The notes under the pieces were generated by a model. The model was not told the DNA's origin. It did not search any database and saw only the letters and a program-made list of their open reading frames with translations. The translations under genes and the position numbers were made by a program. From a virus, in the IMG/VR virus record IMGVR_UViG_3300027896_004018, positions 1-21,955 of that record: a stretch of DNA of 21,955 bases, one strand, 5' to 3'. Positions 1,912-19,827 of this stretch are shown one piece after another. The first letter of the stretch is position 1. Each line of letters begins with the position of its first letter.

Positions 1912-1937
1912 AATGGGGTCAATTAGACCCCATTTTT
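1912..1937. terminator. Bidirectional hairpin terminator
   Basis: A perfect GC-rich stem AATGGGGTC/GACCCCATT with loop AATTA is followed by T residues on the plus strand, and the minus strand also has flanking A/T. It sits between the convergent stops of the propeller gene (+, ends 1909) and the homing endonuclease gene (-, ends 1936), so it can serve both transcripts. Confidence 0.8.
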
Positions 1938-3222
1938 ATTTTAAAATATTTATTTTTTCAATCAATTGTTTTATGTTATTTTCTGGGTCATTTAAAAATT
2001 TTGTTTCATTTATTCTTATGAATGAGCATCCAAAATTTTTAGTAATATATTTTTCTCTTTCAATATCTTTTTTATTTAATTTAAATGTATTGTGTTTTTT
2101 TTCATCCCATTCAATACAAATATTATATTTTTCAATATAACCGTCAACCCAATATTTTATAAATTTTTTTTCACCGCCATTTAGGGCATGTTGAATAGGA
2201 ATATTTAATTTTTCTGAAAGCATATCTAAATAAGTTATTGATATTGGATTGTATGTTGGTACATGTTTAAGCCAAATTTCACCGTATCTTTTGATCATGG
2301 TATTTTGTGCTTTTAAAACAAATTCATTAAATTGTGTTGGGTTTTCAACTCCATATCTTTCCTTTAATGTTTTTATGCGCTTAAAAGCATTATTATAATT
2401 TTCATCATTATATCTTTCAAGTTTAGTCTTCTTCGCTTTAGCAATAATGCTATTGTTTTGAAATGGATTTTCTACACCAAAATGTTTAATTGTTGTATTC
2501 TTTTTTTTATTTTTAATTAATTCAACTTGATTGGTACTTTCACATCCATATTTTAATAAATTATTTTTAATTATTTTGTTTTTTACTACTTGTGATTGTG
2601 ATGGATATTCTGTGCCATATTTATTAATATTTGTTTTTTTTGCTTTATTTTTAATTATGATATTGTTTAATAAAAATTCAGACCCATATCTTTCAAGGTT
2701 AGTTTTTTTTACTTTGTCCTTTTGTGATTTCAATTTTAAATGATGTTCAACCCCGTATCTTTTTAAATTAGTTTGTTTTGTCTTTTCACGATATTCAATC
2801 GTTTGAGTATAGGACTCAACCCCATATCTTTTTAAATTAGTTTGTTTTGTCTTTTCTTTAAATTCTTTAGTCTGACTATAATTTTCAACGCCATATTTCT
2901 CCCTATTTGTTTGTTTAATTTTTTTAATGTTATTGAATCTACTTACACCATATTTCTTCAAACAAGTTTTTGTTATATTTTCTTTTACTTGTAATGAATT
3001 GCTTGCGCATTTTGTTGAACAAAATTCACGATAGCCAGATTTTAAATTTATAAAACCACACAGATTACCACAATAACATTTTGGTAACTTATCTATGTTA
3101 TTAATATAATTATAATATTTTTGTGTAAAATTATTTAATGTAAAATTAAGTGGATATTGAATTATTTTGGAATATAAATTATGATTGTTTTTCTTTATCG
3201 ATCTTTCTGTAATTCGTATCAT
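1936..3222 (-). CDS. Free-standing homing endonuclease with 11 KYGV-type repeats and a VSR-like PD-(D/E)XK nuclease end
   Basis: The 428-residue product starts at the ATG at 3222; a TTG two codons upstream is a weaker option. Residues 49-72 hold a zinc-binding candidate (CxC-x3-C, then C-x3-C). Residues 90 to about 315 carry eleven repeats of the form (K/R)YGVExxxQ, mostly spaced exactly 23 residues and very lysine/asparagine-rich, probably a DNA-binding array. The C-terminus has VDGY (D360), then CIEWDEKKH (E371, D373, H377), a downstream lysine/arginine helix and GCSFIRI. This is the usual layout of VSR-like PD-(D/E)XK endonucleases in mobile phage genes. It is the last gene of the minus-strand metabolic operon and overlaps the preceding gene by 44 nt, which suggests a late insertion. 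It probably makes the element mobile by cutting alleles that lack it. The exact target is unknown. Confidence 0.75.
   Translation of the reverse strand: MIRITERSIKKNNHNLYSKIIQYPLNFTLNNFTQKYYNYINNIDKLPKCYCGNLCGFINLKSGYREFCSTKCASNSLQVKENITKTCLKKYGVSRFNNIKKIKQTNREKYGVENYSQTKEFKEKTKQTNLKRYGVESYTQTIEYREKTKQTNLKRYGVEHHLKLKSQKDKVKKTNLERYGSEFLLNNIIIKNKAKKTNINKYGTEYPSQSQVVKNKIIKNNLLKYGCESTNQVELIKNKKKNTTIKHFGVENPFQNNSIIAKAKKTKLERYNDENYNNAFKRIKTLKERYGVENPTQFNEFVLKAQNTMIKRYGEIWLKHVPTYNPISITYLDMLSEKLNIPIQHALNGGEKKFIKYWVDGYIEKYNICIEWDEKKHNTFKLNKKDIEREKYITKNFGCSFIRINETKFLNDPENNIKQLIEKINILK
2750..2856 (-). repeat. Near-identical 38-nt direct repeats inside the homing endonuclease
   Basis: The 38-nt blocks 2750-2787 and 2819-2856 differ at one position and are offset by 69 nt, exactly 23 codons. 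They encode two adjacent KRYGVE repeat units, so at least part of the array grew by recent tandem duplication of one 23-residue unit. Confidence 0.8.
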
Positions 3223-3451
3223 TTTCAATTTTTTCTTTAACTTCCTTTATTTTCAATAAAAGAATTTCTTTTGCTTTATCATTAGGAAAAATATCAATAC
3301 TTTCTCCATATGATAAATACATATCAATTACAAAAAGAATAAGTTTTTTATCATAATTATTTAAATTTTTCTTTTTTAGACGACATATTGCCAGAGAAAG
3401 AAAAAGAACTACTAGTGCTAATAGTATGAGCAATATGTATAGTACGATCAT
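3179..3451 (-). CDS. Small membrane-anchored protein of unknown function
   Basis: The 90-residue product has one strong transmembrane helix at residues 2-23, very rich in L, I and V. A basic RLKKK stop-transfer segment follows. The rest is a charged helical domain with a lysine/glutamate-rich C-terminus. This predicts a cytoplasmic domain anchored in the inner membrane. The gene begins 4 nt after the upstream stop in the minus-strand operon, and its 3' end overlaps the homing endonuclease start by 44 nt. The family is not recognised. Its position suggests an early or middle accessory function aimed at the host envelope, but that is only inference. Confidence 0.65.
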   Translation of the reverse strand: MIVLYILLILLALVVLFLSLAICRLKKKNLNNYDKKLILFVIDMYLSYGESIDIFPNDKAKEILLLKIKEVKEKIENDTNYRKIDKEKQS

Positions 3452-5210: not shown

Positions 5211-5386
5211 TTTTCAATTAATCTTTTAATTTCTCTCAAGAAATTCAATGATAATAATTTTACAGAATTTTCATCATATGAATCTTTAGTATTTATTCTT
5301 TCGCTGAAAGTTACTTCAACATTCCCAATTATATTAAATTCCTCGTCAAATACGGCAATATTAATACCTTCAATTTTCTGTTCCAT
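5207..5386 (-). CDS. 59-residue hypothetical protein
   Basis: This short frame fills what would otherwise be a gap in the operon. It encodes MEQKIEGINIAVFDEEFN, continues through VEVTFSERINT and ends LREIKRLIEK. Its TGA stop overlaps the thyA ATG as ATGA, a classic translational-coupling arrangement. The composition (one beta-hairpin-like region, then a basic amphipathic helix) is protein-like and lacks runs of rare residues. The family is unknown. The perfect 4-nt overlap and the absence of any competing minus-strand gene are the main support. Confidence 0.65.
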   Translation of the reverse strand: MEQKIEGINIAVFDEEFNIIGNVEVTFSERINTKDSYDENSVKLLSLNFLREIKRLIEK

Positions 5387-6712: not shown

Positions 6713-6998
6713 GTCTTGGTATGTTAAAAAATTCCTTTACTTTCAGATAAATTTCTTTATCATTTTCAATCAATTTACCTTTCCAGAAAAAACCTTCTGG
6801 AGTAATTCGCATCATTTCATTACCTTGTCCTGCAAAAAAAACAATATTGTTTGCTTCAGCAGCGCAGGATTTAAGTGTAAGTACTGGATGTGCTTTCATA
6901 AATTGCATCGATGTAATACCTGTACCACCCAAATATTCTTGACCCTTTGGAATTGTTACTCTTTGTTCGGGAGTGCCGTTTAAATCTTCGTCATTCAT
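6705..6998 (-). CDS. Small hypothetical protein
   Basis: The start was chosen at the ATG at 6998, giving 97 residues and an 8-nt ATGAATGA overlap with the upstream gene; the frame also allows a start at 7022 with a 32-nt overlap. The C-terminal part (EMMRITPEGFFWKGKLIEND, then KVKEFF) looks like a small beta element plus helix that I associate with short phage and bacterial hypothetical proteins. No catalytic residues stand out. Confidence 0.6.
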   Translation of the reverse strand: MNDEDLNGTPEQRVTIPKGQEYLGGTGITSMQFMKAHPVLTLKSCAAEANNIVFFAGQGNEMMRITPEGFFWKGKLIENDKEIYLKVKEFFNIPRHE

Positions 6999-7350
6999 TT
7001 TCTTCGTCTTTTTTATTTTCATTGATTATTTTTCTATAATTTTCCACAATTTCTTTAAGTTCTTTTACTTCTGTAGGATATAATGTAAATTCTTTACGAT
7101 AAGGATGTTTATTGTTTTTATTAATATGCTTGAAGAACCATTTGCCTTGAGATTCAGCTTCTTCAAATTCTTTATACATTTCAAGCGTGACATTACCATA
7201 CGAATATGTATCTCCCCTGCTGAATGCAATATAAAGTCTTTGATTATTAGGAAAATATGTGGTTTTTAGTACATTGTCCGATTCAAATACTGATTCTATA
7301 TACCCCAGACTGCCGTCTTTTTCTTGAAATTCTTTGTGTTCTGCTAACAT
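6991..7350 (-). CDS. KTSC-domain protein
   Basis: The 119-residue protein contains a compact region at about residues 20-75: LKTTYFPNNQRLYIAFSRGD, then YSYGNVTLEMYKEFEEAESQ, then GKWFFKHI. This matches the KTSC domain pattern, in which a small beta sheet (L-x-V/I-x-F-x-x-G-x-x-Y-x-Y) is followed by a helix and a G-x-x-F-x-x-x-I segment. The domain is common in phages and is proposed to bind nucleic acid or assist RNA-related processes; the function is not established. It is the first gene of the minus-strand operon, about 12 nt from the predicted transcription start of a host-type promoter, so it is probably made early in infection. The tail after residue 90 is highly charged. Confidence 0.75.
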   Translation of the reverse strand: MLAEHKEFQEKDGSLGYIESVFESDNVLKTTYFPNNQRLYIAFSRGDTYSYGNVTLEMYKEFEEAESQGKWFFKHINKNNKHPYRKEFTLYPTEVKELKEIVENYRKIINENKKDEENE

Positions 7351-7368: not shown

Positions 7369-7399
7369 CAAATATAATGAATTAATTATTAAATGACAA
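7369..7399 (-). promoter_or_regulatory. Host-type (Bacteroidota) promoter of the metabolic operon
   Basis: Read on the minus strand this is TTG, 20 nt, then TATATTTG, an exact match to the Bacteroidota sigma-ABfr consensus (TTG, N17-23, TAnnTTTG). The -7 box ends 18 nt before the KTSC-protein ATG. The location and perfect match support early or middle transcription by host RNA polymerase. Confidence 0.7.
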
Positions 7400-7400
7400 G

Positions 7401-7415
7401 AGTATTTATATAAAA
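7401..7415 (+). promoter_or_regulatory. Candidate late promoter (AGTATTTAT motif) of the gp15-like gene
   Basis: AGTATTTATATAAAA lies 22 nt upstream of the ATG at 7423. The AGTATTTAT core recurs upstream of six other transcription units in this window, nearly all virion genes. See the separate finding. Confidence 0.55.
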
Positions 7416-7422
7416 AGTTTAT

Positions 7423-8187
7423 ATGTCACTTCCAAAGAAAACAAAATTAACACTTGATATCAATCCACCAAAAGTAGGTACTGAATTCTTAAAATACGGT
7501 ATGGATAGAATTGAAGAGCTTATGCGCTTAACTGATGTTAAAACAAAATATTTACCAAGGACAATTTTGCTTGAAGATTTAGATCAAGCACTTTTTGATT
7601 ATGTTAATGATGAAGGTATGAAAGCTGTTATTGAAGGCAGACCAGTTCCCACATTTTATCTTGATAATGATCGTTGGGGTGAATTTAGTAAAACTTGGAA
7701 ATTTGTTGATAATGATAAAAATGTACCTACACCATATATTACTGTTAGACGTATTGATAAACAAGCTGGTACAAGACTTGGTACAAAATACCGTATTCCA
7801 CAACCACGTAAATTCAGATATATGGATGTACCAATATTGGATAATGGAGAAGTTATTTATCTGAGATTTAAAATGCCTGAACCTACAAACGTTGATATGA
7901 TATATGAAGTTGCATTATTTACCAAATATAGAGTTGATGTTAATCAATATGATGAACAGGTTTTAAAAAACTTTGCTTCACGTCAGGAATATTTATTTAT
8001 TAAAGGTAATCCTCTTCCTCTTCTTTTTGAAGGTTTTGCTGAAGCAAATCCAATTGAAAATATTGATGGTGATAGATTTTTTGTATCAAAATATGCATTA
8101 AAAATTCTTGGATTTATTCAGGATGAAAAAGAATTTGAAATTGTAAAAACATTTAGAAAAACACGACTTAGTTATATTATTAAATAA
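7423..8187 (+). CDS. Probable T4 gp15-like tail terminator/sheath stabiliser
   Basis: The 254-residue product has a C-terminal half that resembles T4 gp15 as I remember it. The segment VDMIYEVALFTKYRVDVNQYDEQVLKNF parallels the gp15 region IYELSIFTRY followed by a D-rich turn and EQIL, and IDGDRFFVSKYALKI parallels the later IDGD region. (The first segment is described here by its key residues: IYE, LFTKY, NQYDEQ.) In T4 this protein caps the tail tube and sheath and joins the tail to the head. An N-terminal helical part contains RIEELMRL and a WGEFSKTW stretch. The gene is alone on the plus strand behind an AGTATTTAT motif. Its last 16 nt overlap the end of the convergent gene. The family call is from remembered similarity, so it is moderate. 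Confidence 0.55.
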   Translation: MSLPKKTKLTLDINPPKVGTEFLKYGMDRIEELMRLTDVKTKYLPRTILLEDLDQALFDYVNDEGMKAVIEGRPVPTFYLDNDRWGEFSKTWKFVDNDKNVPTPYITVRRIDKQAGTRLGTKYRIPQPRKFRYMDVPILDNGEVIYLRFKMPEPTNVDMIYEVALFTKYRVDVNQYDEQVLKNFASRQEYLFIKGNPLPLLFEGFAEANPIENIDGDRFFVSKYALKILGFIQDEKEFEIVKTFRKTRLSYIIK

Positions 8188-9014
8188 GTATTGGTTTTAT
8201 AATCATATGTGTTACCGCTTGGTGGATTCTGCTGTAAATTATTCATATTTGTAACAGTATTATTAAGTTTATCATTATATAATGTGTTGGTAACAAGTTC
8301 CTTAATAATAATATTTGGATAAGATGCTGTTAAAATTTCCCAAGTTTTGTTTATTAAATCTAATTGTGATTTAAAAAATACTCTTTCTGGTGTTGTTATA
8401 CCAATATTGTCGGCATTCATAAATGGTGTTATCATACCAGTTTTTGAATTATAAAAACTAAATTTAACATATCCGATAATTGTTGAACCAGTTTGTGCAT
8501 TTATATATGATAGTGGAACATACCAACGATATAATTGATTATTTACTGCTGCGCCTATTGTATATATAGGAACTGTACCTTTTTTAGTTAAATATGTTGT
8601 AAATATTTTTGTTTGACTATTAATATCAAAAGTATCGTAAAAATCTAAAATAAAAAAACTATTATTAAAGTTAGTTGTTCCACTAATTTCGTCTGATGTA
8701 AAACCTGTTGCCAAAAATGAAGATAAGTATACTGCTAAGGGTACAGAATAAAATTGAAATTGTAGTGTAATGGTATCATTTGGAAGTGGATTTAATTTAA
8801 ATCTTCTTTCTTCTCCGTCAATAACTGGATTTACAAGATCAAGTGTTTTGATTTGTGTTAAATTATCAATATCTTCACCATATTCAATAAAATTAATTGC
8901 TGAACCCAAAGAAATCATCAGATTTATTGAATTACCAGTAAGCGTAGTTCCTGTAGTACCAGTAGTACCAATTAAACTTGAATTAAATCTTATTTTTTGT
9001 TTTATTATTGACAT
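8172..9014 (-). CDS. Probable virion structural protein, unknown role
   Basis: This 280-residue protein is beta-rich, low in cysteine, without a signal peptide or enzymatic motif. Near the N-terminus it has a short Gly-Thr-Thr tandem (residues 16-24, GTTGTTGTT). The middle is rich in aromatic residues and T/N/S, typical of phage baseplate or tail proteins. Its ATG overlaps the stop of the 393-residue gene upstream by 10 nt, and the two are probably a co-translated pair. The 3' end overlaps the convergent gp15-like gene by 16 nt. The structural role is inferred from context. Confidence 0.6.
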   Translation of the reverse strand: MSIIKQKIRFNSSLIGTTGTTGTTLTGNSINLMISLGSAINFIEYGEDIDNLTQIKTLDLVNPVIDGEERRFKLNPLPNDTITLQFQFYSVPLAVYLSSFLATGFTSDEISGTTNFNNSFFILDFYDTFDINSQTKIFTTYLTKKGTVPIYTIGAAVNNQLYRWYVPLSYINAQTGSTIIGYVKFSFYNSKTGMITPFMNADNIGITTPERVFFKSQLDLINKTWEILTASYPNIIIKELVTNTLYNDKLNNTVTNMNNLQQNPPSGNTYDYKTNTYLII

Positions 9015-10186
9015 GGTTTTCCAATATTACTAATATCAGTAATTGGTACTGAATTTATTTTTGTAGCAAATCTATTATACCAAACTTCTTGGAATGCAGC
9101 TAACGTATCGGCATCGTCTAAGTCTGGTGTTATGCCTAATACCAGACTTGAAAATAGATATCTTTTTTTATTTACAAACGGATAATTAACGCCCAAATTA
9201 CTTGTGGGGTCAGTATATCCTTGTGGTAAAATATCTCTCCATACATAATTACCAAAAATATCTATTGGTGTTGCATAATATGGTATTGATGTTGTTTGAT
9301 CATATGAAGTACTACCAGTATTTACAAGATTTAAATCACTTGAAAAATATCTTAATTGAAATGAAATAAAAGGATTGTATTTCCAAATTAAGCGTCTGTT
9401 ATTGTTATTGGTATCTTTATATGGTGTTTGAATATAAAATGTTTGTGGAGATAGTTGTACTTGTAAAAACTCTTCTTTTGAATATTCAAGTAGATCGCCA
9501 ATTTTAGCATTAAAAAATGATTGCACATAATCACCAATATTTAAAGCTATTGGTGAAAAAATAAATTGACTTGGTATTCCTACTGCTGACCATACAGTAC
9601 CTGCCAATGTTTCTGGAGTGGCATAACCGTTTGCCATTGGTTTATATTGTGCGTATAAAAATAGTTCTGTAAGTGGAAAACCAAATTGATCAATGTAGGG
9701 TGAAACATCAAAATCTTCATTAAAACTGAAAGCATATGCTTGCTCACCATAAACATTATTTGAAAAACCAACAGGAAATATTTCAAAATCGTTTGGTGTG
9801 GCAATCACTTGAAAATATCTTGTCCATAATATTGTACTTCCACCGCTAATTATTTGAGTATAACCACTAACTGCAGGTCTGACGAGATAAAAATCAAATG
9901 AATTAAGAATGTTTTTACTATTACCACTAAATTGTGGATAAAAAAAGTCTGAGAATTGTGTATAATTGTTTTTTAATCCATTTAATAATGACATGTATTC
10001 AATTTTACCATAGATTCTGTATATTTCACTTGCTTCTCTTTCAGCATCAAATATATCAGTAGCACTAAGTATATTTCTGATATCATATTCGTTAATTAAT
10101 GCTACCTTGTTTGATAATTCAATTTTTTCATAATTATCAACATTAACTGAAGTGACGTTTTTTAGACTATTAAGTAATATTTCCAC
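9005..10186 (-). CDS. Probable virion structural protein, unknown role (GTG start)
   Basis: The 393-residue product starts at GTG (10184-10186). No in-frame ATG lies upstream before the promoter motif, and the next internal ATG is about 70 codons in. The N-terminal 75 residues look helical and conserved (INEYDIRNILSATDIF, EREASEIYRIYGKIEYMS). The remainder is aromatic-rich and beta-type, with LIWKYNPFISFQLRYF and a C-terminal FVNKKRYLFSSLVLGI segment. I do not recognise a named family. Location between other tail genes and the preceding GTATTTAT motif suggest a late virion or baseplate protein. Confidence 0.65.
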   Translation of the reverse strand: MEILLNSLKNVTSVNVDNYEKIELSNKVALINEYDIRNILSATDIFDAEREASEIYRIYGKIEYMSLLNGLKNNYTQFSDFFYPQFSGNSKNILNSFDFYLVRPAVSGYTQIISGGSTILWTRYFQVIATPNDFEIFPVGFSNNVYGEQAYAFSFNEDFDVSPYIDQFGFPLTELFLYAQYKPMANGYATPETLAGTVWSAVGIPSQFIFSPIALNIGDYVQSFFNAKIGDLLEYSKEEFLQVQLSPQTFYIQTPYKDTNNNNRRLIWKYNPFISFQLRYFSSDLNLVNTGSTSYDQTTSIPYYATPIDIFGNYVWRDILPQGYTDPTSNLGVNYPFVNKKRYLFSSLVLGITPDLDDADTLAAFQEVWYNRFATKINSVPITDISNIGKPCQ

Positions 10187-10203
10187 TCTTATAAATCTTT
10201 TAT

Positions 10204-10212
10204 ATAAATACC
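10204..10212 (-). promoter_or_regulatory. Candidate late promoter (GTATTTAT motif) for 10186-8172
   Basis: On the minus strand this reads GGTATTTAT followed by ATAAAAG, 18 nt before the GTG start. It matches the AGTATTTATATAAAA site of the gp15-like gene except for the first base. Confidence 0.5.
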
Positions 10213-10242
10213 TTAAAAATTTTTTATGAAATTTGTAACCTT

Positions 10243-10275
10243 TTTGATTGAATATACGTATAAGTCATATGTTTA
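10243..10275 (+). promoter_or_regulatory. Host-type promoter of the lipoprotein gene
   Basis: TTTG at 10243-10246, a 21-nt spacer and TATGTTTA at 10268-10275 match the Bacteroidota consensus TTTG/TAnnTTTG at all but the final base. The predicted transcription start is close to 10282, giving a leader of about 14 nt before the ATG at 10296. Confidence 0.5.
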
Positions 10276-10295
10276 ACCAATAAAAAATTATAATT

Positions 10296-10727
10296 ATGAA
10301 AAAATTTATTTATTTATCAATGTTATTTACTGCATTTGCTCTTATGAGTGTAAGCTGCACAAAACCCACTGATGATACTCCTGTGGTTAAAACTTCAGGT
10401 GAACTTTATCCTGCATATGTGGGTAAATGGAATAATGACAGCACAATTAATGGAGATGGTAGTGCGTTGTCCCCCGGTTCTACTGTTCGTCAATATGAAT
10501 TTGAATTTCAAGATGTAAAAGCAATTATAAGTGCAAAAAATTATGCTCCTGATATTATGCATTATAATTCGTGGTCTATTTCTGGAAATACTTTAACGTT
10601 TAGTAAAGGTATTGAAATTGTTGGTGATCAGAATTTTATAATCGTATCTCCGCCAACTAATAATAAAATGATATTACAATTTACCGATTATCTTGGAAAT
10701 ACTTATAAATATTTTTTAAATAAATAA
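10296..10727 (+). CDS. Phage-encoded lipoprotein with lipocalin-like C-terminal region
   Basis: The 143-residue product begins with a classic signal peptide: MKK, a hydrophobic core (FIYLSMLFTAFALM), then a lipobox ending S-V-S-C with Cys21 as the lipidated residue. The mature part starts with a disordered T/D/P-rich linker. It then has a small beta-rich domain containing LYPAYVGKWNNDS and SWSISGNTLTFSKG, which recalls the short lipocalin-like lipoproteins common in Bacteroidota. It would sit on the host inner or outer membrane. It stands alone on the plus strand between minus-strand virion genes, with its own host-type promoter and a strong terminator, the arrangement of a moron. A role in superinfection exclusion or host-surface change is plausible but not shown. 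Confidence 0.8.
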   Translation: MKKFIYLSMLFTAFALMSVSCTKPTDDTPVVKTSGELYPAYVGKWNNDSTINGDGSALSPGSTVRQYEFEFQDVKAIISAKNYAPDIMHYNSWSISGNTLTFSKGIEIVGDQNFIIVSPPTNNKMILQFTDYLGNTYKYFLNK

Positions 10728-10730
10728 ATT

Positions 10731-10754
10731 AAATTTCCAACTTTGGAAATTTTT
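10731..10754. terminator. Bidirectional hairpin terminator
   Basis: AAATTTCCAA and TTGGAAATTT form an inverted repeat separated by CT (effectively 9 bp with a 4-nt loop), flanked by T on one side and A on the other. It lies between the convergent stops of the lipoprotein gene (10727) and the 770-residue gene (10756). Confidence 0.65.
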
Positions 10755-10755
10755 G

Positions 10756-13068
10756 TTATATTATATTAAAATCAACAAGCATTTGAATACAATCATTGTT
10801 ATATATTCCTTTAAATATAAACGCTGTTGCTGGTTCATCAGAAGGCATAATTGAATATGGATAATTTTCATCCCATCCTTTCATTCCACTATTAGGTAAT
10901 AATGGAAGATCATCACCATAATTCCATCCATTTGTGGGAACACCACTTGTGTTGGGCAATAAATATTTAAATCCTTTAGCATTAATAATAATGCCATTAT
11001 TTAATATGTTACCATCACCAACAATATTCCATTTTCTAATATTTATACCCTTTAATGGTATTTTGCTAAGTTTTGTTAAAGTATCTTTAGATATTTGAAT
11101 AAAATCTGTTTTAAATGCATCTCCTCTTGCCATCATTTTAGTATTGATATATCCACCAAATATTTTTTGTTTATTATCATTTCTAAAATAAAAATCAATT
11201 GCATCAGGATTTAAAGCAAAGACACCTGCTTCTCCATAATTTCTACTTCCTCCTTGATGTTCAGACGAATCAATATATGTAAATTGTGGAAATGCCAAGC
11301 AAAAATTTAACCATTGACCACCAAAAAATTTCTCAGTTACTCCTAAATTACTAAATTCAGCATTTGGTGAAAAATCATATGTGAAATTTGTATTTGTACC
11401 TGATGGTGCTGCACCAATATAATTTTGTTCATCATATTTAACTTGTGTGACTCCATCGATACCAGCAACTTTAAACCATAAACCAGCGGTAGTTTTTCTG
11501 TAATTTCCCCAAGTACTGCTATCTAAATAGTTTATCGTATTTGTTTGATTATTATAATTTGTACTATTATTACCAATTACTGATTTTGTTGGAAAAAATT
11601 GTGCAACACTGTAAACTTCACCACCAGTAAATGTTGAATATGTTAATCTCCAAATATCATTATATGTATTTGGACTTGGAAAAAGTCCACTACCTGCCAT
11701 TTGACTATCTGATTCAATTATTGGAATATTTTGTGGTATTTTAAACCAACTGACACGGGCAGTATGCCCCGGATGACCATTTGCATATGTATCACTACCA
11801 CTAAATGTTTTATTTATTGGAATTATTGAATTATTATCGTCATATTTTGCTAATGCCATGCCATAAAATTTTGTAAATACCCCATATGGATAATTATCTG
11901 GAACTGGCGTTTCATTACCAAATTCATCAGTTATAACTTTATTTCTATTACAAGGAATGGTAAGTAAAAAATTACCATTATCATCAATATAAGAAAAATA
12001 TTCTGATTTATCTAATTCACGAATATCAGTTTGAAGATTATATGGATTAGGTGGGGGTGGTGGATATCCAAATGTATTATTTGCAATAATTGCATCAACT
12101 ATTGACATATCGACATTTGTACCAAAAGTAAATATTTTAAAATCAATAGGTGCTCGTCTATATACTCTAATATCCATATTGTTTTCTATTGAATCACTAA
12201 TATTATAAAATGCAATATCACTTGAGCTTATAGCTGGGTCACCATAAACTGCATCTTCACCCATTGTCATTGATGTGCCAAATATTGTAAAGTTTGATTG
12301 AAGTACGGCACGAACTCTAAAGTCTTGACGTGTTATTCCAATTGTAAAGTTTGCTGCATCACCCCAGAACGGCATTATTTCAACACTAATATCTTGTGTT
12401 TCAATATTGGGTAAATCATTTAAATCATTACTTGGTTTTATTGATTTACCACCCACAAATAAATTTGCTGGATAACCAGCAGTTATCATACTTGCTGGTG
12501 TCATACTATATTTGCCAATATCAGTAATATCAACACTTAAATGAACTATTTGTGTTCCTATTGGTACTCCAAAAATCATATAATCTCCAGCACTATTTGT
12601 TAATGCAGTATATTTATAATATTTTTTATAAACATCTAAAAATGTTTGATTTGTTACCAATTCTGGTTTAATCGGAAATGAACCAAATGGTTGTTTTGGT
12701 TTATATTCACCAGTTGCTTGTTCAATTTGTGAAACTCTTGGCAGTAAATTGTACCTTTTACCTTCATTATTTTGATCTCTGGGTGTTGTGTAAGGATAAA
12801 TGCTTGCTATTTCACCAATATTTGCATCTATACTATCCAAAGGAATAAAAACACTTATTTTTGCATTTGGTATTCCAATACCACCATTGGCAATTACTCT
12901 TCCAATTAAAACACCATAATCAGCATTGAAATTCTGATAAATATCTTTTGTACTAAGATTCATTGAAAGAAGTTCAAGGGTATCAACATTCTGATCAAGT
13001 TTTATTATAATATGACTATCTGAATCTGGTTCATTATTATTTAATTGAATACGTTGTGATTTATTCAT
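10756..13068 (-). CDS. Large virion structural protein with carboxypeptidase-regulatory-like beta-sandwich
   Basis: The 770-residue protein has near its N-terminus VLIGRVIANGGIGIPNAKIS and, after an insertion of about 90 residues, TALTNSAGDYMIFGVPIGT and VHLSVDITDIG. Together these form the typical strands of a CarboxypepD_reg/Cna-B-like beta-sandwich (G-x-V ... G-x-x-x-x-x-A-x-V ... T-x-x-x-G-x-Y-x-F). The domain is common in adhesive and structural phage proteins. The rest is a long aromatic-, N- and P-rich region with a PPPPP-type run near residue 340 and no enzyme motif. No signal peptide is present. It has an upstream AGTATTTAT motif and lies divergent to the tail sheath gene, supporting a late tail, baseplate or neck role. 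The exact part is unknown. Confidence 0.7.
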   Translation of the reverse strand: MNKSQRIQLNNNEPDSDSHIIIKLDQNVDTLELLSMNLSTKDIYQNFNADYGVLIGRVIANGGIGIPNAKISVFIPLDSIDANIGEIASIYPYTTPRDQNNEGKRYNLLPRVSQIEQATGEYKPKQPFGSFPIKPELVTNQTFLDVYKKYYKYTALTNSAGDYMIFGVPIGTQIVHLSVDITDIGKYSMTPASMITAGYPANLFVGGKSIKPSNDLNDLPNIETQDISVEIMPFWGDAANFTIGITRQDFRVRAVLQSNFTIFGTSMTMGEDAVYGDPAISSSDIAFYNISDSIENNMDIRVYRRAPIDFKIFTFGTNVDMSIVDAIIANNTFGYPPPPPNPYNLQTDIRELDKSEYFSYIDDNGNFLLTIPCNRNKVITDEFGNETPVPDNYPYGVFTKFYGMALAKYDDNNSIIPINKTFSGSDTYANGHPGHTARVSWFKIPQNIPIIESDSQMAGSGLFPSPNTYNDIWRLTYSTFTGGEVYSVAQFFPTKSVIGNNSTNYNNQTNTINYLDSSTWGNYRKTTAGLWFKVAGIDGVTQVKYDEQNYIGAAPSGTNTNFTYDFSPNAEFSNLGVTEKFFGGQWLNFCLAFPQFTYIDSSEHQGGSRNYGEAGVFALNPDAIDFYFRNDNKQKIFGGYINTKMMARGDAFKTDFIQISKDTLTKLSKIPLKGINIRKWNIVGDGNILNNGIIINAKGFKYLLPNTSGVPTNGWNYGDDLPLLPNSGMKGWDENYPYSIMPSDEPATAFIFKGIYNNDCIQMLVDFNII

Positions 13069-13083
13069 GGTAAACTATTTTCA

Positions 13084-13092
13084 ATAAATACT
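13084..13092 (-). promoter_or_regulatory. Candidate late promoter (AGTATTTAT) for 13068-10756
   Basis: On the minus strand TTTTAGTATTTATTGAAAA occurs 16 nt before the ATG at 13068. It is almost the same as the plus-strand site at 13299 (TTTTAGTATTTATTTGAAAA), so the two divergent genes share the motif and its flanks. Confidence 0.55.
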
Positions 13093-13298
13093 AAAATAAA
13101 GAATTTCTTATAAATGTGAAAATATTTTTAAAAAAAAGTGAATTTTTTTTTCAAGAAATTTCAGAAAATTTGAGGCAAAAAATTTGAAATTTTTCAAAAT
13201 CCAAGATGAAAAAATAGAAAAAGTTAAGAATTTGATTTTATGAGCAAGAACTGCAACTAGATAATAATTAATGTTAATTACCTTTTCAAGTATTTTTT

Positions 13299-13307
13299 AG
13301 TATTTAT
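13299..13307 (+). promoter_or_regulatory. Candidate late promoter (AGTATTTAT) of the tail sheath gene
   Basis: TTTTAGTATTTATTTGAAAA lies 72 nt upstream of the sheath ATG, leaving a longer A-rich leader than at the other sites. A partial copy (AAGTATTTTTT) lies 10 nt upstream. Confidence 0.55.
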
Positions 13308-13370
13308 TTGAAAAGTAAGATAGAACTTATATTAGAAAATAATAATAAAAAAAATTAATAATTAATAAAC

Positions 13371-16172
13371 ATGGCAGATTTTGTATTTACCTCTCCGGGT
13401 GTAAAATTTAAAGAACGTGATCTCACATTTGTGACACGTAACGTAGGTATCACTACATTAGGCTTAGTTGGTGAAACGTTAAAGGGACCTGCATTTGAAC
13501 ATATATATCTTCAAGATGCAACTCAGTTCGCAACAAGATTCGGTGCTCAAAGCATTGAGAAATTTCCAGCAAATGGAAATTTAAAATATCAATTACCATA
13601 TGTGGCAAATTCATATTTACAGGAAACCAATCAATTATATGTAACAAGAGTATTGGGATTATCTGGATATGATGCTGGTACTGGCTGGACACTTACATTA
13701 AGTGCTGGTGTTGACCCTGCAACTATTGTAAGTGGAGCAACAAGTGCATATACCGCAAATTTTACTGGCAACACTTTTATGGGTGTTGTTGTAAATATTG
13801 ATGGGGATAAAGGACTTGTGTTTTCAGGTTTTCATAAAACAGGTACGGCATTTAGCGGATATTCTTATTCATTCATTGTTAGTGGAATGACTGGTGCAAG
13901 TCATACTGCACATATTACAAGAGTATATTTAACTGGTACTTCATACAGTGCATATGAAAATATGGTACTTGCTGTTATTAGAAGTAGAGGTTATGTAACT
14001 GATCAGGTAAATTTACCATCAATAACAACATTTTATACAAAAACACTTACATTGCCAGCTTCTGGAAACACTACTGTTATTGGTTCGGGTGATTTATATG
14101 GTCAATTTACATTAGTTGCAACAAGTGGTTCAAGTGTGGCAAAATATACAGCCACATTAAATCCAAATTCGAGCAGTTTCTTACCAAATGTAATTGGTTC
14201 TTTGCCTAAAGACAAAAACACAAAAATTTGGACACAAGCAATATATCCAGATTTAATTCAAGTTTTGGATTCTGGTGGTGACACATATCCTTCAAAATTA
14301 GCAAAATATGGTCTTACTGGTGTGGCAGCATATGGTTACGGTGTTAGTAGTACTTTAATTACATTGAAATCTGATTTTTATAAAAATTATAAAACTCAAT
14401 TCCAGACACCTGAAACTCCTTGGGTTGTATCACAATTAAAGGGTAGTGAAATTGACAGATTATTTAAATTTGTTAGTATTTCAGATGGTGATGCAGCTAA
14501 TCAGGAAATCAAAATCAGTATTCAAAATATTAACCCAATTACATTGGAATTCGATGTTATTGTTCGTGATTTTAACGATACTGATGCAAATCCAGTAGTA
14601 TTGGAGTCCAATAAAAGATGTTCTTTAATCCAAGGACAAACAACTTTTATTGGACAACGTATTGGTACAACTGATGGAGTATATGATATTGTAAGTAATT
14701 ATATTATGGTTGAACTTGCAGATAATCTTTCACCTGATTTATTCCCAGCAGGTTTTGAAGGTTATGAATTTAATAATTATTCTAAAGCTGAAACTGGTGA
14801 TGGTTCAACTGATGGTAAAGCACCAATAATTCTTTATAAAACTGATTATACACAAACTGATAAAGTTAGAAAAGTATATTTAGGATTATCTGAAAATGGT
14901 TATAGTACAGCAAATGTTGTAGGAAGCGGTATTAATCAAAATATGTTCAATTTTAATGGTCAAACAACTTCACCTTCTGGTTTCACAAAAACTAAAGGCT
15001 TCCATATGGATTCTGGTGCAACTGGCACATATACTGAAGGAACAACAGTTATTGGAACATTTGAAACTGGTGCTGGTAGTTTCCAGAGTGTTGATGATGT
15101 TGTAAATAATTTAAATCCATATTATGACATTAATACAAGAAAATTCACATTAGTTCCTGCAGGTGGATTTGATGGTTGGGACGTTAACAGAGGTTATCGT
15201 TCATATGGCGACTTATATAATCAAGGTGCTATTTATGATGGTGTTGCTCCAAATGCACAAGCAGTAAATGACTTCCAAGCATGGCAGACAGCAATTAATA
15301 CATTCTCAAACCCCGAAGAAGTTACAATTAATGTTTTTGCAACTCCGGGTATCAACTGGTCAGATAATACCGTTTTAGTTCAAGACACAATCGATATGAT
15401 TGAAAATGATAGAGCAGATACATTATATGTAATCGATTCTCCACTTATTGGTCAGCCACAAGTAGTTGGTCAGGCAAAACAAGATGTTCAGTATGCAACA
15501 GATGTTGCTCAATTACTTACTGATACTGATATTGATAGCAGTTATTCATGTACTTATTTCCCTTGGATTCAACTCAGAGATACACAAAACAATGTTAATG
15601 TTTATATTCCACCTACAGGTGAAGTAGTAAAAGCAATGGCATATACCGATAATGTAGCATTCCCTTGGTTTGCACCTGCTGGTTTGAATCGTGGTGTAAC
15701 TGATGCAAGAAAATCAATGTTTAAATTATCACAAGAAGCTCGTGATGTATTATACAAAGGTAGAATTAATCCAATGGCTGACTTTGCAGATGCTGGTACA
15801 GCAATTTTTGGACAGAAAACATTGCAAGTTAAAGAAAGTGCTCTTGATAGAATCAATGTTCGTAGATTATTACTTCAGATTAAAGTTCTTATTTCAAATA
15901 TTGCAATCAGACTTGTATTTGAACAGGATGATCAAACAACAATTGATCAATTCATAACAAAATCTACTCCAGTACTTGATACAATCAAGAGAGAAAGAGG
16001 ATTAAATGATTACAGAATCAAAATGGATAGTAGTAATAATACTCCTGAATCAATGGATAGAGAAGAATTATATGGTGAATTATTCTTAAAACCAACACGT
16101 GCTGTTGAATTTATTGGAATTACATTTACAATCACTCCTTCTGGAGCATCATTTGCTGATATTGGAGCATAA
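13371..16172 (+). CDS. Contractile tail sheath protein (T4 gp18-like)
   Basis: The 933-residue product is the sheath that surrounds the tail tube and contracts on infection. The N-terminus has the family signature PGVKFKERDLT (9-19), followed by LVGETLKGPAFEH and an FGAQ segment. The C-terminal third carries the most conserved sheath region: PWFAPAGLNRG, INPMADF, GTAIFGQKTL, ESALDRINVRRLLLQIK and LVFEQDDQTT, ending with the terminal strand VEFIGITFTITPSG. It is much longer than T4 gp18 (659 residues). The extra length sits in a G/T/S-rich beta region at about 100-300 and another at about 480-590, probably surface-exposed domains. An AGTATTTAT motif lies upstream and a strong terminator follows, so it can be transcribed as a single high-level unit. 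Confidence 0.95.
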   Translation: MADFVFTSPGVKFKERDLTFVTRNVGITTLGLVGETLKGPAFEHIYLQDATQFATRFGAQSIEKFPANGNLKYQLPYVANSYLQETNQLYVTRVLGLSGYDAGTGWTLTLSAGVDPATIVSGATSAYTANFTGNTFMGVVVNIDGDKGLVFSGFHKTGTAFSGYSYSFIVSGMTGASHTAHITRVYLTGTSYSAYENMVLAVIRSRGYVTDQVNLPSITTFYTKTLTLPASGNTTVIGSGDLYGQFTLVATSGSSVAKYTATLNPNSSSFLPNVIGSLPKDKNTKIWTQAIYPDLIQVLDSGGDTYPSKLAKYGLTGVAAYGYGVSSTLITLKSDFYKNYKTQFQTPETPWVVSQLKGSEIDRLFKFVSISDGDAANQEIKISIQNINPITLEFDVIVRDFNDTDANPVVLESNKRCSLIQGQTTFIGQRIGTTDGVYDIVSNYIMVELADNLSPDLFPAGFEGYEFNNYSKAETGDGSTDGKAPIILYKTDYTQTDKVRKVYLGLSENGYSTANVVGSGINQNMFNFNGQTTSPSGFTKTKGFHMDSGATGTYTEGTTVIGTFETGAGSFQSVDDVVNNLNPYYDINTRKFTLVPAGGFDGWDVNRGYRSYGDLYNQGAIYDGVAPNAQAVNDFQAWQTAINTFSNPEEVTINVFATPGINWSDNTVLVQDTIDMIENDRADTLYVIDSPLIGQPQVVGQAKQDVQYATDVAQLLTDTDIDSSYSCTYFPWIQLRDTQNNVNVYIPPTGEVVKAMAYTDNVAFPWFAPAGLNRGVTDARKSMFKLSQEARDVLYKGRINPMADFADAGTAIFGQKTLQVKESALDRINVRRLLLQIKVLISNIAIRLVFEQDDQTTIDQFITKSTPVLDTIKRERGLNDYRIKMDSSNNTPESMDREELYGELFLKPTRAVEFIGITFTITPSGASFADIGA

Positions 16173-16187
16173 AATTTAAATTTTTAT

Positions 16188-16224
16188 AAAAAAAACCATT
16201 AAATATATGTTTAATGGTTTTTTT
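16188..16224 (+). terminator. Rho-independent terminator after the sheath gene
   Basis: A 14-bp stem, with AAAAAACCATTAAA paired to TTTAATGGTTTTTT, has loop TATATG and ends in a T run. It begins 16 nt after the sheath stop. Confidence 0.85.
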
Positions 16225-16234
16225 ATTCATTTAA

Positions 16235-16248
16235 TGTATTTATATTTG
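16235..16248 (+). promoter_or_regulatory. Composite promoter region of homing endonuclease 2
   Basis: TGTATTTAT (16235-16243), one base off the late motif, overlaps TATATTTG (16241-16248), an exact Bacteroidota -7 box. No clear -33 TTG is seen upstream, so which element is used is uncertain. It lies about 40 nt before the ATG at 16289. Confidence 0.4.
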
Positions 16249-16288
16249 CATAACTAAGTTAGTAGATTAAATGTAAATTTCACGATAT

Positions 16289-17863
16289 ATGGCAACAACA
16301 ATTAATTTAATTTGTAAACATTGTAAAAACACTTTTATTGTTAAAAAGGGAAGAGAAAGATTATTTTGTTCAAGTATGTGCAAATCTTTATATAGAACAA
16401 ATAATGATGAAAAGTATTATATTGAAAAGCATTGTGAATATTGTCAAAAAATATTTAAATCAAAAAAGAAAGAAAATAAAAAATTTTGTTCATATAAATG
16501 TTCTGGTTTAAATAAGAAAAAAATTTCAAAAGAAAATAGAACCTGTCTTGAATGTGGAGCGTTATTTTCAGAAAGAATAAAGCACAAAAGAAATTTTTGT
16601 TCTGAAACATGTAGAAAAAAGTGGCAAAATAAATCAGAAAATATAAAAAACAGACTTGATATGTCAAAAAAAGCTGTTTTAAATAAATATGGTGTTAATA
16701 ACACATTTCAGGTTGATTCAATTAGATTAAAAGCAAATATTAATTCTAAAAAAACATATAAAGAAAGAGGTTCTGAAATTATTAAAGCAAGTTTATTAAA
16801 AATAGAGAAAAAAAGACAAATTTCTTTAATTAAGAGATTTTCAGAAAAAGGATATGTTATACTAAATTTTAATAATAAAGATAATAAATTAACTGTTATA
16901 CATCCAGATGGGCATATATTTGAAAATGATAGAAATTTATTGGTAAATAGACTTAATCATAATGTTGAATTATCAACAATATTACAACCAATTGGCTCAT
17001 CACGAACAACATTTGAATTAAAAATATGTGATTTTTTAAAAAATAATAATATTAAATATATTTCAAATGATAGAAAAACAATTGATGGCGAGTTAGATAT
17101 TTATATCCCTTCACATAATTTAGCTATAGAAATAAACGGATTATATTGGCATTCAGAATATTATATTAATAATGATTATCATCTTATTAAAACAAAAAAA
17201 TGTATGGAAAAAAATATTCAATTATTACATTTTTTTGAAGATGAATTAATTGAAAAGTATGAAATTATTGAATCTATGATAAAAAGTAAATTAAATATTA
17301 TTAGTAATAAAATATTTGCAAGAAAATGTTATATTAATGAAATTGATGCTAAAATCGCATCTGAATTTTTAAAAAATAATCATATTCAGGGCAATGTAAA
17401 TGCTTCCATTAAAATAGGATTATTTTTTAAAAATGAACTTGTTTCAATAATGACATTTGGAAAATTAAGAAACGTACTTGGCAATAAAATAAAAGGTGAT
17501 AAAGAATATGAAATGTTACGATTTTGTAATAAACTTGATACAATTGTTGTTGGTGGAGCAAGTAAGTTATATAACTATTTTAAAATTAAATATATTCCCA
17601 ATAAAGTGATTAGTTTTGCAAATAAAAGATATTCAAATGGAAATTTATATAAACAATTGGGTTTTAAATTTGAATATGATACAACGCCAAATTATTGGTA
17701 TGTTTTAAATAAGGAAAGAAAACATAGATTTTTATATAGAAAACAATTACTTGTGAAAGATGGTTTTGATTCAAATAAAAGTGAGCATCAAATAATGTCA
17801 GAAAGAAAGATTCCAAGAATATATGATTGTGGATGTAGTAAGTTTATTGACGTTGGCGCATAA
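16289..17863 (+). CDS. Free-standing homing endonuclease: three zinc ribbons plus VSR-like nuclease
   Basis: The 524-residue product begins with three evenly built zinc ribbons, each Cx2C-x14-Cx3C: C9/12/27/31, C49/52/67/71 and C86/89/104/108. One KYGVNNTFQ repeat unit follows at 133-141, the same unit that is repeated eleven times in the endonuclease at 1936-3222. The nuclease core is FELKICDFL (E243), GELDIYIPSHNLAIEINGLY (E268, D270, E281) and WHSE (H288), the EDxHD/VSR-like pattern of free-standing phage homing endonucleases. A conserved C-terminal domain (NHIQG, TFGKLRN, YEMLRF, GGASKLYNYF, ISFANKRYSNG) is usual in this class and may bind DNA. It sits between the sheath and tail genes with its own promoter and terminator and is not needed for virion assembly; spread by cutting empty alleles is inferred. 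Confidence 0.85.
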   Translation: MATTINLICKHCKNTFIVKKGRERLFCSSMCKSLYRTNNDEKYYIEKHCEYCQKIFKSKKKENKKFCSYKCSGLNKKKISKENRTCLECGALFSERIKHKRNFCSETCRKKWQNKSENIKNRLDMSKKAVLNKYGVNNTFQVDSIRLKANINSKKTYKERGSEIIKASLLKIEKKRQISLIKRFSEKGYVILNFNNKDNKLTVIHPDGHIFENDRNLLVNRLNHNVELSTILQPIGSSRTTFELKICDFLKNNNIKYISNDRKTIDGELDIYIPSHNLAIEINGLYWHSEYYINNDYHLIKTKKCMEKNIQLLHFFEDELIEKYEIIESMIKSKLNIISNKIFARKCYINEIDAKIASEFLKNNHIQGNVNASIKIGLFFKNELVSIMTFGKLRNVLGNKIKGDKEYEMLRFCNKLDTIVVGGASKLYNYFKIKYIPNKVISFANKRYSNGNLYKQLGFKFEYDTTPNYWYVLNKERKHRFLYRKQLLVKDGFDSNKSEHQIMSERKIPRIYDCGCSKFIDVGA

Positions 17864-17884
17864 TAAACAATGACTTTAAATAAG

Positions 17885-17914
17885 AAGACCTATAATATTA
17901 TAGGTCTTTTTTTT
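17885..17914 (+). terminator. Strong terminator after homing endonuclease 2
   Basis: A perfect 24-nt palindrome (arms AAGACCTATA and TATAGGTCTT around ATAT) runs into eight T residues. It isolates the endonuclease from the next tail gene. Confidence 0.9.
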
Positions 17915-17921
17915 ATGTGTT

Positions 17922-17930
17922 AGTATTTAT
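17922..17930 (+). promoter_or_regulatory. Candidate late promoter (AGTATTTAT) of the acidic protein gene
   Basis: TTAGTATTTATGTAAAAATAA lies just after the terminator, 39 nt before the ATG at 17961. (Core is AGTATTTAT.) Because it lies between two plus-strand genes, only the plus direction makes sense. Confidence 0.55.
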
Positions 17931-17960
17931 GTAAAAATAATATTATAATTTTTTATAAAA

Positions 17961-18548
17961 ATGAATACAAAAAATAATAAAAAGGTATACAGTAAGCCAG
18001 TGGCTGAAAAACCAAAAGAAGAAATAATTGAACAACAGACAGAAGAAATTACAGAAAGTCATTCTATTGACTCTGAAGTATTCGAGACCAAATTATTTGT
18101 TCCTGAAGATGAAATATGGATTGAAAAACCAAGTTTAGATGAACTACAAGAAGAGTTAACAAAACAACTTGCAACACCAGAACCAGAAAAAACAACTGAA
18201 GAGTTTGTTAAAGATAATGAATTAAAAGAAAAACTTGAAGAACTTAAAACAAAATTTGAAGAATTTCAAACTGTTCAGGTAGAACCAATAATTCCTGAAC
18301 CAGAAATTGAATATACTTTAACTCCCGAACAAGAAAAAGAGGGTGCACAGGCAGTTGCTGATATGGTAAATAATCAAATTATTGAAGAATTAAAAGCATT
18401 AAATTATGTACCAAAAGAAAGTGTTACTGAAAAAATTAATGGAGAATATTTTTTAACTGAAAAACAGGCAAATCCTGAAAAAACATTAGAAAGTTTAAGT
18501 CAACATGAATTAAGACATTTTCACAGAACTGGTCAGATGCCAAAGTAA
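17961..18548 (+). CDS. Glutamate-rich acidic protein between sheath and tube, unknown function
   Basis: The 195-residue product has a basic N-terminal stretch (NTKNNKKVYSKP) and then a long, very acidic middle rich in E, P and K (EEIIEQQTEEITE; EPEKTTEEF; a coiled-coil-like ELKEKLEELKTKFEEFQ at about 93-109). A shorter, more folded C-terminus ends SQHELRHFHRTGQMPK. No family is recognised. Low-complexity acidic composition with a short folded end, in a gene between sheath and tube, fits a tail-assembly chaperone, scaffold or tube/sheath accessory protein, but this is inferred only from position. It has its own AGTATTTAT motif, so it is probably made with the other late proteins. Confidence 0.6.
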   Translation: MNTKNNKKVYSKPVAEKPKEEIIEQQTEEITESHSIDSEVFETKLFVPEDEIWIEKPSLDELQEELTKQLATPEPEKTTEEFVKDNELKEKLEELKTKFEEFQTVQVEPIIPEPEIEYTLTPEQEKEGAQAVADMVNNQIIEELKALNYVPKESVTEKINGEYFLTEKQANPEKTLESLSQHELRHFHRTGQMPK

Positions 18549-18583
18549 GATTTAAATTTTATTGAATTGTTTTCGAAGATGTA

Positions 18584-18592
18584 AGTATTTAT
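18584..18592 (+). promoter_or_regulatory. Candidate late promoter (AGTATTTAT) of the tail tube gene
   Basis: AAGTATTTATTATAAAAATAA lies 46 nt before the ATG at 18630 (core AGTATTTAT). A partial AAGTATTA copy follows 17 nt later. Confidence 0.55.
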
Positions 18593-18629: not shown

Positions 18630-19118
18630 ATGGCAGATATGATAAGGGGTATCCCGTTTCAATATGAACCCAAAAGAATTAATAGATTCTTTGCAGAATT
18701 TGCAGATGAATTGGGTATTGAAGTTTGGAAAATTCAAAAGTTCAAAAGACCTTCAATGAAAATTAACTCAGTACAGATTCAGTTCATGAATGAACAGAAT
18801 TATGTAGCTGGCAGATATAATTGGGAAGAAATGCAGTTAACCTTCCTTGACCCAATCGGACCGTCTACGTCACAACAACTTATGGAGTGGGTTCGTTTAC
18901 ATGCAGAATCACTTACAGGTCGTGAAGGTTATGCAGCAGGTTATAAGAAAAACATTCTTTTAAAGGCAGTTGACCCAACAGGTGTTGAAGTTGAAAAATG
19001 GACTTTGGAACAATGTATGGTAACTGGTATCGATTTTGGTGAAAACAGTTATGAAGATGATGGTTTAACAACCATACAACTCACGCTCCAGCCGTGGCGT
19101 TGCATTTTAAATATGTAG
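18630..19118 (+). CDS. Tail tube protein (T4 gp19-like)
   Basis: The 162-residue product forms the inner tube of the contractile tail. Size matches T4 gp19 (163 residues). Shared features include an N-terminal PxRxNRFFAEF segment, a KFKRPSMKINSVQIQFMNEQ strand pair (compare the gp19 region with a PxGFMN motif), VAGRYNWEEMQLTF (gp19 has VAGxxTFDDWTVTV), a helical MEWVRLHAE, the GREGYAAGYKKNILL stretch before a KKxxVxK/WTLEQC strand, and a terminal IQLTLQPW (gp19 FEVTLALDYW). Its placement after the sheath gene is the standard myovirus order. Codons and base content are less AT-biased than in its unknown neighbours, as is usual for highly expressed virion genes. Confidence 0.9.
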   Translation: MADMIRGIPFQYEPKRINRFFAEFADELGIEVWKIQKFKRPSMKINSVQIQFMNEQNYVAGRYNWEEMQLTFLDPIGPSTSQQLMEWVRLHAESLTGREGYAAGYKKNILLKAVDPTGVEVEKWTLEQCMVTGIDFGENSYEDDGLTTIQLTLQPWRCILNM

Positions 19119-19185: not shown

Positions 19186-19827
19186 TTAAATTATATGTGC
19201 CCATGTTTTTCTTAATATAATTGAATTTATGTTTGAATGAGCAACATTAAATATTTTAGAAATATCTTTTTGTGAAATTCCTTCAATAAAATACATTTCA
19301 CGAATTCTAATAATATCTTCTGATTTTAATTTTGCTTTAGGATGATTTTCGCCAATAAAAGTAAGAATTCCTCTTCTTCCCAATGAGATTCTGTTTCTGG
19401 TTTCAACAGAAACTGGTTTATTAAAATTATGATGCTCAATTCCGTATTTACCAAACATTGGATTTTTTGCTCCTTGTTTTTGTAATGAAAGTATTTTTTT
19501 TGTTTTTTCACTGTGCTTTTTATTTAAAAATGAATGTTCAGGGTCGTTAACATTATAACCATAAATTTTGTTTGAAGAATCAAATATTTTTATAAATTCC
19601 TTTTCTTTTATTAATAGCTTATCTGTTGTGCATTCTAAAATTATTGAGAATTCAAAATTATTAACGCCATATTTATTCCATGCTGATTGTAAATGTGAAT
19701 TATGATGTAAATTATGAATTAAATGCCATTTATGATCACGCCATCTTTTTTTAATATCAATAGCACTACCAATATAAATTTTATTGTTTACTTTATTTAA
19801 TATTTTATATATTCCAGTAATTATCAT
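19186..19827 (-). CDS. GIY-YIG homing endonuclease (SegA/I-TevI-like)
   Basis: The 213-residue protein has a GIY-YIG nuclease domain at residues 1-90: GIY at 5-7, YIG at 18-20, catalytic Arg28 in KKRWRDH, and the metal-binding Glu in KEKEFI (E77 most likely). A NUMOD3-type DNA-binding region follows (HSEKTKKILS, NPMFGK, VETRNRISLG, residues about 100-150). The C-terminal 45 residues form a helix-turn-helix (IIRIREMYFIEGISQKDISKIFNV). This order is typical of phage mobile nucleases. The ATG directly abuts the TAA of the upstream nuclease gene (TAAATG), so it may be translated by re-initiation. Insertion next to a phage nuclease gene is a common site for such elements. Confidence 0.92.
   Translation of the reverse strand: MIITGIYKILNKVNNKIYIGSAIDIKKRWRDHKWHLIHNLHHNSHLQSAWNKYGVNNFEFSIILECTTDKLLIKEKEFIKIFDSSNKIYGYNVNDPEHSFLNKKHSEKTKKILSLQKQGAKNPMFGKYGIEHHNFNKPVSVETRNRISLGRRGILTFIGENHPKAKLKSEDIIRIREMYFIEGISQKDISKIFNVAHSNINSIILRKTWAHII

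Follow-up and report, generated by a model that had tools for sequence, protein, structure and literature searches.

The window analysed here, i.e. the whole stretch of 21,955 bases taken as a fragment from IMG/VR record IMGVR_UViG_3300027896_004018, encodes a tail sheath protein (13371..16172, plus strand; phrog_23, E=1.4e-56) and a tail tube protein (18630..19118, plus strand; phrog_4542, E=1e-23), both late and structural. In front of these and several other genes lies the word AGTATTTAT or a close variant, for which sequence comparison strongly supports a role as late-type promoter. On the plus strand, AGTATTTAT-TTG-AAA at 13299..13307 precedes the sheath gene and itself follows a CTTTT tract at a distance of about 12-17 nt, while AGTATTTAT-TAT-AAA at 18584..18592 precedes the tube gene and is found before 10/10 orthologues. 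A conserved gene of 254 aa (7423-8187) is preceded by AGTATTTAT-ATA-AAA at 7401..7409, a site present in 11/11 orthologues, and the gene at 17961-18548 by AGTATTTAT-GTA-AAA at 17922..17930, directly 5' of which an intrinsic terminator-like hairpin is situated (17882..17911, plus strand). A weak site, TGTATTTAT, was found at 16235..16243 before a homing-endonuclease-like gene (16289-17863). The two minus-strand sites are AGTATTTAT-TGA-AAA at 13084..13092, before a gene of 770 aa (10756-13068; site in 10/11 orthologues), and the variant GGTATTTAT-ATA-AAA at 10204..10212, before the gene at 9005-10186. One further exact copy, at 5288 on the plus strand, is off-target.

The positions and strands of these seven sites and of the off-target copy had been given by a first-pass annotation and could be confirmed. 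Its spacing of 16-72 nt combines two different measures. Counted from the last motif base to the start codon, the plus-strand sites lie, in order, 13, 63, 45, 30 and 37 nt away, and the minus-strand sites 10204 and 13084 lie 17 and 15 nt away. The label 'virion-gene' for the units behind the sites is too wide for site 16235 with its homing-endonuclease-like gene, and unproven for several conserved genes of unknown function.

Six exact copies of AGTATTTAT were observed in the window vs 0.84 expected, a number reached by none of 100 shuffled sequences. With one mismatch allowed, the count was close to chance (34 vs 27), and the two variant sites were therefore judged by profile and comparative tests. 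A profile trained on ten related records, with the window excluded, ranked the seven sites as 1 to 7 in the window, with 17922 as top hit, 10204 as sixth and 16235 as seventh, although this ranking is not fully independent because the training set contains orthologous sites. The copy at 5288 fell outside the top 16 and has no A-run at +12..+14. Site 16235 is the weakest of the seven; it also lacks the AAA at +12..+14, and it is preceded by a hairpin and T-run.

A search of IMG/VR with the sheath protein yielded 29 relatives, and the 26 of them that include upstream DNA all have the exact word 5' of the sheath gene, at protein identities down to 58%. For a broader comparison, ten complete related IMG/VR phage records (58-328 kb) and the window were combined into a set of 1.34 Mb, in which genes were called crudely. 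Among the 914 upstream regions of these 11 records, AGTATTTAT was the most over-represented 9-mer (233 vs 7.9 expected); its reverse complement occurred 72 times, as divergent gene pairs would explain. The whole set holds 313 exact copies, 252 of them intergenic, in sense orientation and upstream of a gene, mostly with 14-18 nt between motif end and start codon. Sorted by arrangement, 158 copies were tandem, 98 divergent, 6 wrong-way, 2 convergent and 47 within genes, so that 256 of the 264 scorable intergenic copies were directed at a gene in the AGTATTTAT sense. Shuffled or reversed control words were located mostly inside genes. Word, conservation, orientation and spacing were obtained directly. 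The first-pass annotation had named a lack of genome-wide enrichment before late genes as refuting its reading, and in the ten related records the enrichment was strong. The pattern AGTATTTAT-N4-AA was absent from Mel-JY01, LR756508 and a Flavobacterium immuto phage, and a near-identity search of annotated phages gave no match.

Refinement of the motif gave [A/T/C]GTATTTAT-N3-AAA, preceded at 12-17 nt by a weak CTTTT tract. The logo of 240 sites reads AGTATTTAT-N3-AAA, with A at +12..+14 (0.78, 0.94 and 0.91) and the weak CTTTT at -17..-12. Enriched one-base variants were confined to the first position (T, C and partly G) and to ACTATTTAT; substitutions within the core TATTTAT are poorly tolerated. 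Terminators made up of a hairpin and T-run lie immediately 5' of 38 of 343 sites, among them 16235 and 17922 in the window, compared with 2 in shuffled sequence.

Grouping of orthologues directly separated the genes into classes. A late site was observed before the genes for sheath (11/11), tube (10/10), portal (10/10), baseplate hub (8/8), head protease (8/10) and terminase (8/13, a group larger than the number of records, indicating some split genes). The major capsid gene has no late site of its own, while the gene preceding it has one in 10/10 cases. No late site was present in the orthologue groups of thymidylate synthase (10), helicase (10) and PhoH (8). A host-type promoter was found instead before ribonucleotide reductase (4/4), exonuclease (5/8) and a KTSC-domain gene (10/11).

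Two further promoter classes were observed in the same phages, and all three are present in the window. Class H, TTG-N18..20-TAnnTTTG, was counted 94 times before genes vs 3 times for the reversed pattern. It fits the consensus of the Bacteroidota primary sigma factor, with TAnnTTTG at -7 and TTTG near -33 (PMC7366714), which makes a host in the Bacteroidota probable for this clade. By sequence, promoters of this primary sigma type appear to serve the early genes of these phages, whereas the late word does not fit TAnnTTTG, and this box is absent from the late logo as well. A search of bacterial genome contigs with the sheath protein recovered no true relative, so the host phylum is based on the TAnnTTTG promoters. 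A sigma-70 consensus scan of the window gave no excess (91 vs 89.6 expected).

The class H promoter of the window, TTG-N20-TATATTTG at 7369..7399 on the minus strand, is kept in 10/11 orthologues and faces a leftward early operon with KTSC-domain, dUTPase-like and thymidylate synthase-like genes. It stands back to back with the late promoter on the plus strand in a gap of 72 nt, the former kept in 10/11 and the latter in 11/11 cases. Judged from its sequence, the segment 7369-7409 is a predicted early/late divergent switch.

Class E, TGTAAC-N16/17-CGTATAA, is represented by 158 intergenic sites, which cluster in a distinct non-structural arm of the records G001, G002 and G003. Its pair of boxes and their spacing are those of promoters for extracytoplasmic function (ECF) sigma factors. 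The late class shares with it GTAT at +1..+4, a T-tract at -15..-12 and the A-run at +12..+14, and lacks its TGTAAC box. In the window, the class E promoter TGTAAC-N17-CGTATA (10234..10262, plus strand) precedes the gene at 10296-10727 and is divergent from the late site at 10204. This gene is small and lipoprotein-like, and stands alone amid opposite-strand genes of the late structural region. As a separate observation, the ECF-type promoter form TGTAACCTTT..CGTATAA seems to lie 5' of tRNA-like or other non-coding sequences and small genes at about 5536 and at 178, minus strand, in L036 (G001, 1-20 kb).

Phages of the same clade encode ECF-like sigma factors. Family A genes (G001 10693-11481, minus strand; G003 107478-108032 and 110718-111260, plus strand) are each preceded by a TAnnTTTG box and are located in the class E arm. 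Family B, here SigB, is encoded at G001 239169-239831 and G002 164883-165518, and also on contigs L110-L114. The SigB gene overlaps the end of the primase gene, which in G001 and G002, the two largest records, carries a host-type promoter, and the region lies near SbcD- and SbcC-like genes. In G001 this overlap lies in segment L047 (18208-19831), and in several relatives an opposite-strand Hsp20-like gene comes after the SigB gene. SigB belongs to the ECF family (TIGR02937, E=1e-20, 73.9 bits vs a cut-off of 42.9), with Pfam matches over the cut-off to PF04542, PF04545 and PF07638, and consists of regions 2 and 4 only. The nearest solved chains are sigmaE and SigW. Its structural model has a low overall pLDDT (predicted local distance difference test) of 62, and only region 2 (pLDDT about 72-89) was used; this region superposes on that of sigmaE bound to -10 DNA within 1.7-2.1 A. 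On contigs retrieved with SigB as the sole query, the genes are preceded by the late motif and, judging by contig names, the SigB contigs L110 and L112 share metagenomes with the structural contigs L015/G009 and L027/G004. SigB had no match among annotated phages.

From these comparisons we infer that the sites act as promoters in vivo, that they act late, and which sigma factor reads them. Probably, AGTATTTAT serves as the -10-like element in late promoters of a clade of large tailed Bacteroidota phages, and would be read by the host core RNA polymerase together with SigB. A phage ECF-like sigma factor on the host core polymerase is the likely reader, and SigB is a plausible candidate for that factor. 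This agrees with the earlier suggestion of a late promoter recognised by a phage factor or a modified host polymerase. Of these two, a phage specificity factor is favoured: ECF-like sigma factors are present and no phage RNA polymerase was found.

A complete late promoter would consist of the weak CTTTT tract, about 11 nt, [A/T/C]GTATTTAT, N3 and AAA. RNA would start some 4-8 nt after the motif, on the AAA or just past it, leaving a leader of about 10-15 nt to the start codon at most sites. In the proposed programme, the host sigma factor would act on TTG-N20-TAnnTTTG to express the genes for replication and nucleotide metabolism, among them primase-SigB and those for the phage ECF sigma factors. 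Another phage sigma factor would read TGTAAC-N16/17-CGTATAA before early and host-takeover genes, after which SigB would read AGTATTTAT before virion and packaging genes. A tentative extension, which we hold to be almost as likely to be right as wrong, is a two-step cascade of phage ECF-type sigma factors. One would read TGTAAC-N16/17-CGTATAA, and SigB, evolved from the same kind, would read a sister promoter whose -35 box is nearly lost and whose -10 box is now GTATTTAT, replacing the gp55 and clamp of T4-like relatives.

Several points weigh against this reading. The late timing is deduced from gene function. With the region 4 that SigB has kept, a clear -35 box would be expected, yet the sites show only a weak T-rich tract, and part of this tract may be terminator T-runs. 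SigB is not encoded in the window fragment, and its presence in this phage is expected from relatives. The co-occurrence of SigB and motif is weak proof because of shared ancestry, and the late promoters could instead be read by the other phage ECF sigma factors or by a factor that escaped recognition.

Late promoters served by phage factors are already known from T4 (PMC2988020), phiEco32 and 7-11 (PMC8948821). The middle/late promoters of phiEco32 have a single conserved -10-like box, tAATGTAtA, and no clear -35, and are read by host core polymerase with the sigma factor gp36, with RNA starts 6-8 bp downstream of the box (PMC8948821). The phages studied here resemble it in the single -10-like box before late genes without a clear -35 box and in the proposed combination of phage sigma and host core. 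They differ in the word AGTATTTAT, in their Bacteroidota-type early promoters, in being very large and myovirus-like, and in the additional bipartite ECF-type class; SigB has a region 4, unlike gp36. The weak -35 region of the late sites, reminiscent of single-element promoters such as those of gp36 without region 4 (PMC8948821), could point to a different reader of the late promoter, either another phage ECF sigma or an undetected gp55-like or novel factor, with SigB otherwise engaged. Such a reader is unlikely, despite the fact that several sigma factors can occur in one phage (two each in G001 and G003) and that the 148-kb record G003, which has the motif, yielded no SigB. As the primase and SbcC-like genes next to SigB are absent from G003 too, this fragment probably just does not cover the SigB region. 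The remaining sigma genes sit in the TGTAAC..CGTATAA arm, a better fit for them, and no convincing homologue of T4 gp55 was found (phmmer best E=0.02, to unrelated small proteins; hhalign probability of SigB vs gp55 0.4%). For phage 7-11, the late promoters read by sigma factor gp47 are bipartite, GTAAtg-(16)-aCTA (PMC8948821), similar in spacing and GTAA box to class E (TGTAAC-N16/17-CGTATAA). In 7-11, however, the bipartite class is the late one, whereas here it occupies the non-structural arm and the late class has a single box.

T4 late promoters depend on gp55, gp33 and gp45 and carry a single AT-rich box roughly one helical turn ahead of the RNA start, an AT-rich segment downstream and no conserved -35 element (PMC2988020). 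By sequence, the late sites described here share this layout, as well as the presence of late genes on both strands, and the sigma gene of these phages, too, lies beside SbcC/SbcD-like genes. The T4 box TATAAATA in its sense direction is the reverse complement of the late word, so the sites might be T4-type late promoters read in the opposite direction. The reverse complement ATAAATACT does overlap the T4 late box, sheath and tube are T4-like, and T4 has TTCTTTATAAATACT at two places. This explanation is nonetheless barely tenable: as the first-pass annotation had argued from orientation, the direction is opposite to that of T4 in 256 of 264 intergenic copies, 158 of them between tandem genes. 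The T4 sigma factor is moreover a diverged region-2 protein and not of ECF type, and T4 activation needs a clamp. The gp45-type clamp profile (PF02916) detected that of T4 and nothing in five related records, where a diverged clamp is possible.

Large phages often encode their own RNA polymerases, and single-box promoters are common among them. A promoter for such an enzyme, multisubunit or T7-like, is nevertheless very improbable here. The Rpb2 domain of the RNA polymerase beta subunit was not matched in the ten records, which are possibly incomplete, while controls were positive in 14/14 genomes, and no T7-type polymerase was detected in G001 and G002 by a search that detected that of T7 itself. 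Only slightly more credible is a translation or RNA-processing signal in the late mRNA leader. Start codons 14-18 nt downstream at many sites and an A-rich flank, as Bacteroidota initiation regions can have, would fit it. However, motif and AAA stand at a fixed spacing, whereas the start codon can be as far as about 70 nt away, and in most relatives that of the sheath gene is about 60 nt away; the architecture is shared with the ECF-type class, and terminators lie directly 5' of some sites.

In the searchable literature, with most subscription journals outside its scope, the word AGTATTTAT, the host group and the three-class arrangement appear unreported, and as far as literature searches show, no transcription programme has been described for large uncultured phages of Bacteroidota. 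With three separable promoter classes and candidate sigma factors, early genes could be told from late ones by sequence alone, hundreds of uncharacterised genes among them. If SigB does read AGTATTTAT, this would be a phage sigma-promoter pair orthogonal to the unusual primary sigma factor of the host and usable for Bacteroidota expression tools, and a T4-like virion would be driven by an ECF-type sigma factor in place of gp55 and clamp.

The left part of the window consists of a leftward block with KTSC-domain, dUTPase-like and thymidylate-synthase-like genes, the latter two named from their translations. The KTSC-domain gene lies at 6991-7350, the domain itself being found in the G001 orthologue. 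Three probable selfish endonuclease genes are scattered over the window. One, in the sheath-tube interval (16289-17863), is zinc-finger/Vsr/Mom-like, with a Pfam match to Mom and a Vsr match below the cut-off. Another follows the tube gene (19186-19827; GIY-YIG/NUMOD3), and the third is situated at 1936-3228 (DUF7487 and REase-like). The adjacent genes at 116-625 and 644-1909 have near-identical ends (DAAFAAIDHEIYVEVTYMPEEIVQ.NIK), which suggests a duplicated C-terminal tail, and the latter gene contains Delta-60-like repeats.

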